Source: Planctomycetaceae bacterium
GTDB lineage: Bacteria; Planctomycetota; Planctomycetia; Planctomycetales; Planctomycetaceae
DNA length: 33,203 nt
Direction of reading: 5' to 3'
Assembly: GCA_020426485.1 (NCBI GenBank)
Contig: JAGQPY010000011.1
Coordinates: 1 to 33,203 of the forward strand
This document shows, one piece after another, positions 23,683 to 33,203 of the stretch; the stretch's first letter is position 1; each line of letters opens with the position of its first letter. A program made the position numbers and the translations under genes. Under the pieces are notes generated by a model. It made no database searches. It worked only from the letters and a program-made list of their open reading frames with translations, and was not told where the DNA came from.

Positions 23683-24165
23683 TCAGTCCTGCATTTCTTC
23701 GACGCCCTGGCGACGAGCCTCAACGGCCATTCTTCTGGCCTGCACGAAGCCGTATTTCCGAACAGAAAACCGGCGAGTCCGCCGCTGGCCAGGTGCCGGG
23801 CTCCATTGAGCTTCCCAGAAGGCATAGGTCTGCGTTTTTGCCCCTCGCGTATCCTGAACCTCGGTATACCGCACTCCCACGACGCCGGATCGATTGGACC
23901 TTCGCTTCGTTGTCGCTCTGTCCCTTCGGCTGTATTTCCGGTGAGCAAGCTTCTCGATCAGAGAATCGCGGAATGCCCGAGCCGCAAGCAAAGCGGCTTT
24001 CTTTCCGCCGTGGACGCCGTCACTGAACAATTTGCAGTACAGACGTCGCTGTCGCATCAGGCGAACTTCGTAGCCGCGTGTATGCCCGCATTCGATACGG
24101 GAAATGTTGCGATTGACGGATCTGGAGGTGTTGAAGGCAGAAACACCCTGAGAGGAGCTTTTCAT
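23683..24165 (-). CDS. Small protein with two AP2/ERF-like DNA-binding domains
   Basis: This is a 160-residue, strongly basic protein. Residues about 20-72 read I-S-R-I-x5-R-G-Y-E-V-R, then L-Y-C-K-L-F-S-D-G and G-G-K-K-A-A-L-L-A-A-R-A-F-R-D. Residues about 93-152 read S-G-V-V-G-V-R-Y, then F-W-E-A-Q-W, R-R-F-S-V-R-K-Y-G and A-R-R-M-A-V-E-A-R-R. Both follow the AP2 pattern of three strands with aromatic and arginine positions, then an amphipathic helix with A-A-R-x-Y/F or an equivalent. AP2 is best known from plant transcription factors and, in bacteria and phages, from HNH homing endonucleases. No HNH motif is present, so a stand-alone DNA-binding role (regulator or remnant of a mobile element) is inferred. 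No clear ribosome-binding site precedes the ATG at 24165. A terminator lies just upstream, so it needs its own promoter. Confidence 0.72.
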   Translation of the reverse strand: MKSSSQGVSAFNTSRSVNRNISRIECGHTRGYEVRLMRQRRLYCKLFSDGVHGGKKAALLAARAFRDSLIEKLAHRKYSRRDRATTKRRSNRSGVVGVRYTEVQDTRGAKTQTYAFWEAQWSPAPGQRRTRRFSVRKYGFVQARRMAVEARRQGVEEMQD

Positions 24166-24183: not shown

Positions 24184-24210
24184 AAAAAATCAGGACGCCA
24201 AGACGTCCTG
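24184..24210 (-). terminator. Rho-independent terminator downstream of the squalene-cyclase-like gene
   Basis: Read on the - strand, a 7-bp perfect stem (24204-24210 with 24191-24197) with a 6-nt loop is followed by A and six T. It is about 225 nt past the stop of the 24437 gene and just before the AP2 start. It separates those two transcription units. Confidence 0.65.
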
Positions 24211-24436: not shown

Positions 24437-25585
24437 CTACCTCTGATAGATGGGCAGGTAATGATATTTGACGGAAAGCGTCAGAATCGCCATCGACGTC
24501 GCGTAAACACGTCCGAGGCCTCGTTCGGAACCATTCTGAGCCAGCCAGGCTCCGTTGCCCTCTTGCTGGCTGAACAGCATTTCCTGAACCAGCTTCTGCG
24601 ACTGCTCCGAATACTGTCCACCACGCTGGTACATGCCCTGAGCGTAGTAGTAAGTTCCATACGAACAGAATCTCTCGTTCCACTTGGGAGGATGTTCACT
24701 CAACCAATCCGCCGCTCCGGCGACGAGCGGTGATTCATATTCTCCGCAAACCTGCATCGCCAGAAGTCCGGCGGCCGTCATCGCAAATGTGGGGTGAGTA
24801 TGATGAGGCTCATAGCAGAAGCCGCTGGCTTTTTTGTCCGGCTGACCGTCCGGATCCAGTGGTGATGCATAGGACCGCTTCAGGTATTCGACCGCTTCAT
24901 CAATCGCGGTGGAAGGCACCTGCAGCCCGTCATTCCTGGCAGATCGAAGTGCCATCAACTGCCAGACGGAAACTGACAGGTCGGCGTCCCGGGAATCCGG
25001 CGTATACCTCCAACCGCCACGAAACTGAGGTGGCTTGTCTTCCTTCTGTGAACTCAGAATGACGTCGATCGCCTTCTCGCAGCGATCAAGAACCAACTGA
25101 TCAAGTTCCGGTTCGTTGGTCATTCCCAGCAATTCCGTCAACATCAGAGTGATGATGCCGTGGCCATACATCCGAGAACCGTCTTTGCCTCCGTAGTAGC
25201 CCTTGTCGTCACAGCGGTCATCACGAAGCACAAACTGCAGTGCCTTCCGCATCGCGCGGCCTTCCGGAGTTGGTTCTCCGGGCTGAACACCGACACTGGC
25301 CATCGCCATCACGGCCAGAGCCGTCATCGTGGTGTCGTGCTGGTTTTCAACAATCGCACCATCGTCTCGCTGTTGAGTCAGCAGGTAGGCCACCGCTCGC
25401 TCCACCGCAACGTCTGTGGCATCCTTTTGAAATGGATCCGCCGGAGCACCGTCCGAATCAGTGTTCGTCTGTACCGCTTTCGTCTGTACCGCATTTTCCT
25501 GCGCTGCAACTGTCGAAGACCACAGGAATGCGGCACACCCCAGCAGCACAGGCATTGTTCGAACGCTTTTGATCACTCGAAACAT
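24437..25585 (-). CDS. Secreted prenyltransferase/squalene-cyclase-repeat protein
   Basis: This is a 382-residue protein starting at ATG 25585; a TTG three codons earlier is an alternative. Residues about 8-28 form a Sec signal peptide (hydrophobic, ending V-A-A-Q), so it is exported. The mature part has repeated helical segments of the alpha/alpha-barrel family shared by squalene cyclases and prenyltransferases: [41 protein letters not shown] and [10 protein letters not shown]. It lacks the D-x-D-D-T-A catalytic motif of squalene-hopene cyclases, so it is probably not a cyclase. Export also suggests a binding or structural role. It follows the DUF4175-like gene by about 175 bp on the same strand, a common association in planctomycetes. 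A 15-nt duplication (25464-25493) doubles A-V-Q-T near the mature N-terminus. Confidence 0.85.
25464..25493. repeat. In-frame 15-nt tandem duplication in the squalene-cyclase-like gene
   Basis: TTCGTCTGTACCGC occurs at 25464-25477 and 25479-25492 with a 15-nt period. It encodes a doubled A-V-Q-T-K/N unit just after the signal peptide, a tolerant linker position. It is likely a replication-slippage product. Confidence 0.7.
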
Positions 25586-25761
25586 GTATCTCAACCAATA
25601 TGACCGAATGTGAAGCCCCTTCAGCGGCTACAGAATGCTGTCTGCCTCGGAAGGCCTTAATTTTCGTCCACATGTCCCCGAAGAACTACCTGAAAGACAG
25701 TCTGCTGAACCCACAGATTGCCCAGTCCTTCGCCAGTCCGGAGGAGAACACCGTCGGCCGT

Positions 25762-32764: not shown

Positions 32765-32877
32765 TTCCCGGCAATAACCTACTTTCGCGCTGGTATGCAC
32801 TATCATCGGCCCTGAGAGCTTAACGGTCGTGTTCGGAATGGGAACGTGTGTTTCCTCACAGGTAAAGTCACCGGGAT
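32765..32877 (-). rRNA. rrf: 5S ribosomal RNA
   Basis: About 113 nt read on the - strand. The 5' end TCCCGG-TGAC pairs with the 3' end TTG-CCGGGA to form the terminal helix. The conserved core is present: the stretch around CCCATTCCGAACACG (loop B/C region), GTTAAGCTCTC, and AGTAGG near the 3' side. Ends are placed from the terminal helix and are accurate to a few nt. It follows the 23S gene after a ~120-nt spacer, which holds a 6-bp hairpin at 32929-32944, and is followed by a strong terminator. Confidence 0.93.
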
Positions 32878-32997
32878 GCACGGAAGCGCCAGCAAAGCCG
32901 CACTCCTCCGTGTGAAAAAGTCTAAGTGTTGGCCCAAAGGCCAAATTGCGTACCAAGTAGTCGCCACACGATCAACGCCAACTGGCAGTCAATCAAA

Positions 32998-33203
32998 GTG
33001 GTCAAGCATTCCTCCGTTAGTACTGGTCAGCTCAGACGCTTGCACGCCTCACACAGCCAGCCTATCAACCTGGTCGTCTTCCAGGGGAGTTCAGGACCGA
33101 AGTCCAACGAAACCTAATCTTGGGGATGGCTTCACGCTTATATGCTTTCAGCGTTTATCCAAATAGCAATGTAGCTACCCAGCCATGCCCTTTTGGGACA
33201 ACT
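32998..33203 (-). rRNA. rrl: 23S ribosomal RNA, 3' end only (runs off the window)
   Basis: On the - strand the sequence matches the last ~205 nt of bacterial 23S rRNA. From the window edge it reads the conserved G-G-C-T-G-G-G-T-A-G-C-T-A region, A-A-A-C-G-C-T-G-A-A-A-G-C-A-T, then GTTGATAGGCTGG, and finally GAGCTGACCAGTACTAA near the mature 3' end. The 3' boundary (about 32998) is estimated from the conserved end and may be off by several nt. The rest of the gene lies beyond 33203. Order on the strand is 23S, 5S, terminator; whether a 16S gene is linked cannot be seen. Confidence 0.95.

Follow-up and report, generated by a model that had tools for sequence, protein, structure and literature searches.

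The AP2 fold is best known from the transcription factors that serve as gene switches in plants, while bacterial AP2 proteins are known for their DNA-cutting part. AP2 domains have been reported in bacteria but sparsely (77 proteins in one survey; PMC7017128), and proteins combining HNH with AP2 are treated there as a family of homing endonucleases (PMC10448857). According to one survey of DNA-binding domains, prokaryotic factors do not repeat a single domain, and only plants have AP2 repeats (PMC2937223). A search of the open-licence literature turned up no paper devoted to tandem AP2 proteins of bacteria, which does not in itself establish priority. Presented here is a nuclease-free protein with two AP2-type units, encoded on a 33,203-nucleotide stretch of a Planctomycetaceae bacterium (the window; contig JAGQPY010000011.1). 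We favor its reading as a chromosomal DNA-binding protein in which two AP2-fold units are joined by a short basic linker, most likely one that regulates transcription or has an architectural, nucleoid-associated role.

Five described groups come closest to it. Plant AP2/ERF proteins (PF00847) have the AP2 fold in common, and the two-unit layout recalls the repeated AP2 domains of the plant AP2 subfamily, although the window protein is bacterial and its first unit lies below Pfam detection. PfSIP2 of Plasmodium (PDB 6sy0) likewise packs a pair of AP2 units into about 140 residues and has been solved with two DNA half-sites; however, it is eukaryotic and its sequence similarity to the window family is weak. 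HNH-AP2 homing endonucleases (HNH_3 plus AP2) share the AP2 unit and occur in the same bacterial class, but they join HNH_3 to usually one AP2 unit, whereas the window protein has two units and no nuclease. The closest predicted folds are those of the Toxoplasma mtAP2 proteins, which are eukaryotic and bind rRNA within the ribosome. Finally, bacterial histone-H1-like proteins (HC2, AlgP type) share Lys/Ala-rich tails with many relatives of the window protein, but they have no AP2 units, and the window protein has no tail.

The gene is located on the minus strand at 24165..23683 (ATG at 24165, stop at 23683) and encodes a strongly basic protein of 160 aa (pI ~11.4), in agreement with the size and charge given in the first-pass annotation. 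The plus-strand frame at 23683-24165 was rejected as a shadow frame, the AP2 protein being encoded on the minus strand. The first-pass annotation had made its reading depend on translation of the frame. An untranslated frame could be argued from the overlapping plus-strand shadow ORF (188 aa), which is longer than the AP2 gene, and from a codon-position GC that is weakly gene-like. However, a family profile from which the window protein was held out has its sole match within the window in the minus frame (E-value = 2e-45), so that the AP2 gene is not a chance ORF, and there is 55% identity, with an intact frame, to G360; we give the untranslated reading practically no weight. On the same strand, a hairpin of 8 pairs that resembles a terminator, with a run of T behind it, was located at 24191-24210, ending about 20-25 nt 5' of the AP2 ATG. 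It may serve as an attenuator or mark where an upstream transcript ends, and it was not seen by inspection in the upstream sequences of orthologues. Elsewhere the window encodes DUF1549/1553, DUF1501 and DUF1559-type proteins, a gene content that points to a planctomycete host. The minus strand at 32766-33203 carries the 5S rRNA and the 3' end of the 23S rRNA; the contig ends within this rRNA operon and the ORFs listed in that region are spurious.

The first-pass annotation had proposed two AP2-type segments, and both find support, by different routes. Pfam AP2 (PF00847) matches residues 117-153 (23707-23817; E-value = 6e-9) at 36.5 bits against a gathering cut-off of 33.3, in the second unit only. 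The first half had no match to this model, and residues 17-77 searched alone matched no Pfam family; PHROGs and NCBIfam gave no match for the window protein. In two relatives, L129 and L113, it is the first unit that the Pfam AP2 model hits (E-value ~4e-4). Homology of the first half to the second was seen when the profile of residues 19-78 was compared with that of residues 88-160, both drawn from 38 relatives; the comparison scored 31.5 (P = 1.9e-6) against a maximum of 12.2 among 40 column-shuffled control profiles. The duplicated units share an F-S-x..G..A..A signature, of which F-S-x..G..A is common to both halves in most relatives, and basic residues at positions 23, 35, 38, 45, 55, 129, 137 and 151 are kept across phyla.

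Structure prediction, which had been suggested for both halves, points the same way. The AlphaFold2 model (16 sequences; mean pLDDT 76) predicts three strands followed by a helix in each half. The first AP2-like unit (residues 19-74, 23944..24111, minus strand) would comprise strands at 21-26, 29-38 and 41-48 and a helix at 55-74, and the second (residues 86-159, 23689..23910, minus strand), located by the PF00847 match and the model, strands followed by a predicted helix at 140-159. Between them lies a basic linker (residues 75-85, 23911..23943, minus strand; pLDDT <50 for residues 76-83), and an N-terminal extension of 18 residues (24112..24165, minus strand) is non-conserved, missing in orthologues and modeled with low confidence (pLDDT <50 for residues 1-17). 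With a pTM of 0.42, the model does not fix the relative placement of the halves. Modeled alone, the N-terminal half reached a pLDDT of 87, and its top Foldseek matches were Toxoplasma mitoribosomal AP2 domains (probability 1.00 and 0.99, TM 0.69, rmsd 1.5-1.8 Å); E-values in this search are weak, with none below 0.001, and the fold call relies on probability and TM-score. Next came P4-like integrase arm-binding domains, and the tandem AP2 of Plasmodium SIP2 stood further down. A PUR-alpha-like fold, among the weak fold matches, was set aside as having no sequence support.

We infer DNA as the ligand, two-site binding and a regulatory or architectural role, DNA being chosen because of the AP2 membership, the conserved basic residues and the tails of relatives. 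The three-stranded sheet of each unit would probably enter the DNA major groove, and the pair of units may read or clamp two neighboring half-sites. Since no nuclease or sensor domain is present, the protein most likely works through occupancy of DNA, in a regulatory or an architectural capacity. RNA is a real rival as ligand, given that rRNA is what the nearest solved folds bind (PMC11652630). Under that alternative the AP2 units would bind structured RNA, or the ribosome, like the mitochondrial AP2 proteins of Toxoplasma, which are included among the best sequence-profile and fold matches and contact rRNA through Arg residues (PMC11652630); the very basic character of the window protein would fit it as well. 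Against it, the best match of the family profile in the PDB is 6sy0, the DNA-bound tandem AP2 of PfSIP2, and no ribosomal gene context appears among the neighbor matches listed. The H1-like tails of relatives, typical of DNA-packing proteins, also argue for DNA. We consider RNA binding unlikely and retain DNA binding as the preferred reading.

These Lys/Ala-rich tails reach up to about 150 residues and would confer extra, non-specific DNA affinity; they are borne by the paralogue in this genome and by many relatives, whereas the window protein has no such tail and is itself strongly basic. They sit at the N terminus in Gammaproteobacteria and Verrucomicrobiota and at the C terminus in planctomycetes, and their position at opposite ends in different phyla suggests separate acquisitions. 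The tail of one relative (L010) scored 36.5 bits against Pfam HC2, under the cut-off of 40, and composition bias may contribute to this score. Two members from Bacteroidota MAGs (L013 and L024) are acidic rather than basic. The family might represent a new class of bacterial chromatin-like protein. Its patchy occurrence in the bacterial family of the window (6/170 genomes) speaks against the role of a general nucleoid protein in that group.

The earlier claim that the protein is nuclease-free held: no HNH motif was found in it, nor in the three upstream frames, and an upstream HNH relict was rejected. The pattern used upstream recognized just two of four known HNH examples, and these frames were therefore also read by eye. 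Among the 38 aligned tandem proteins none contains HNH, while Pfam AP2 was matched in 32 of them; members of the family are nearly always devoid of a DNA-cutting part. An alternative is that they represent the DNA-recognition module, or the remnant, of a nuclease system of homing or restriction type whose nuclease was lost, and that they may still act with a partner nuclease. All eight other AP2 proteins found in the planctomycete class are HNH_3 fusions, an HNH gene is found close to one of the plasmid members, and split HNH/AP2 reading frames are known from phage ICP1 (PMC10448857). A gammaproteobacterial relative (L110:1423-2382), in which tandem AP2-like units are followed by a C-terminal HNH domain (PF01844), also speaks for it; this protein may be a nuclease of restriction type that uses AP2 units for recognition. 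In opposition stand the absence of HNH from the aligned members and from the upstream frames, the lack of a PADLOC match for the window protein (by which a defense system was also discarded), and the single-copy, syntenic occurrence in most genomes of one gammaproteobacterial family. Moreover, profile comparison gives the two halves a far higher mutual similarity than they show to HNH-linked AP2 domains of the same class; the descent from an HNH homing endonuclease put forward in the first-pass annotation remains conjectural. We regard a nuclease-derived module as improbable and keep to a chromosomal DNA-binding protein. A planctomycete HNH_3 protein with two AP2 domains was also encountered (L071:1174-1938).

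Signs of maintenance come from Gammaproteobacteria and from one planctomycete pair, and not from the window gene itself. One gammaproteobacterial family has a member in 22 of 24 genomes; in four of these the member is of a divergent form, and a fifth carries a divergent second copy. At 10 of the 11 loci examined the tandem AP2 gene is followed closely by the same Sel1-repeat gene and preceded by a DUF1631 gene; farther out, most have a sensor kinase and a glucokinase. The median dN/dS is ~0.03 (10 usable pairs). Given this frequency, the mostly conserved locus and the low ratio, the tandem AP2 gene is a maintained host gene in this family at least. Across the class Gammaproteobacteria the distribution is patchy (19/369 genomes). 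Our wider proposal is tentative, and somewhat short of an even bet: that these are previously unrecognized bacterial tandem-AP2 chromosome-binding regulators with exchangeable histone-H1-like tails, near-core and syntenic in at least one gammaproteobacterial family. If true, they would be a bacterial counterpart of the plant double-AP2 factors and contradict the view of AP2 repeats as plant-only; a nuclease-free tandem AP2 family spanning several phyla speaks against that statement (PMC2937223). Such proteins would also offer tractable systems for asking how AP2 domains, whether they came out of mobile nucleases or another source, were taken up by hosts for their own purposes.

Tandem homologues were detected in 20 of 398 genomes of the planctomycete class, and also in Verrucomicrobiota, Bacteroidota, Rhodothermota, Chloroflexota and Gammaproteobacteria; databases list such proteins, those on plasmids included, as 'hypothetical protein' or 'AP2 domain-containing protein'. 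The copy-number survey that had been proposed for the same genome yielded two divergent copies, the second being a basic-tailed paralogue (contig C266; 35% identity), and the genome search found no third tandem homologue. In the tree, a tailed planctomycete clade (100/100) that includes the paralogue stands apart from the tail-less forms nearest to the window protein, while deeper branching is poorly resolved. Phages gave no match with the queries used, nor did three scans of viral contigs, which detect close relatives only; on these results a phage or virus origin was discarded, and with two divergent copies the gene does not behave as a mobile, multi-copy insertion. Members on large plasmids of Rhizobiaceae (Alphaproteobacteria) and Methylobacter were reached with an Acidithiobacillus relative as query, the window protein itself giving no plasmid match.

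Together with the patchy occurrence in class and family, and with the finding that planctomycete loci share no neighbor genes, these plasmid members could indicate a horizontally transferred accessory gene, transient in planctomycetes and of no important role in this host. However, the planctomycete neighbors are varied, ordinary metabolic genes among the matches listed, the 25 commonest of 117 matched families include none from mobile elements, one planctomycete pair shows a dN of 0.003 against a dS of 0.30, and two well-separated subfamilies are both present in this genome. A transient passenger is therefore very unlikely in our judgment, and a chromosomal DNA-binding protein remains the preferred reading. 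The suggestion of a domesticated regulator in the first-pass annotation is upheld in part: the signs of a host gene (strong purifying selection and synteny in the gammaproteobacterial family, ordinary neighbors in planctomycetes, no phage or viral match with the queries used) stand, and the origin from an HNH homing endonuclease is conjectural, as is a role in transcription over one in DNA organization or RNA binding.

A squalene-hopene-cyclase-like gene adjoins the AP2 gene in two distant planctomycetes (window 24437-25594 and L062:5561-7294; 29% identity); it may be shared by chance and is weak as a conserved neighbor. Tandem AP2 proteins on Agrobacterium and Rhizobium plasmids (L081:5965-6936 and L082:5950-6891) bear an extra C-terminal region of about 150 residues that has no Pfam match, and one of these two genes adjoins a type VI secretion vgrG gene.
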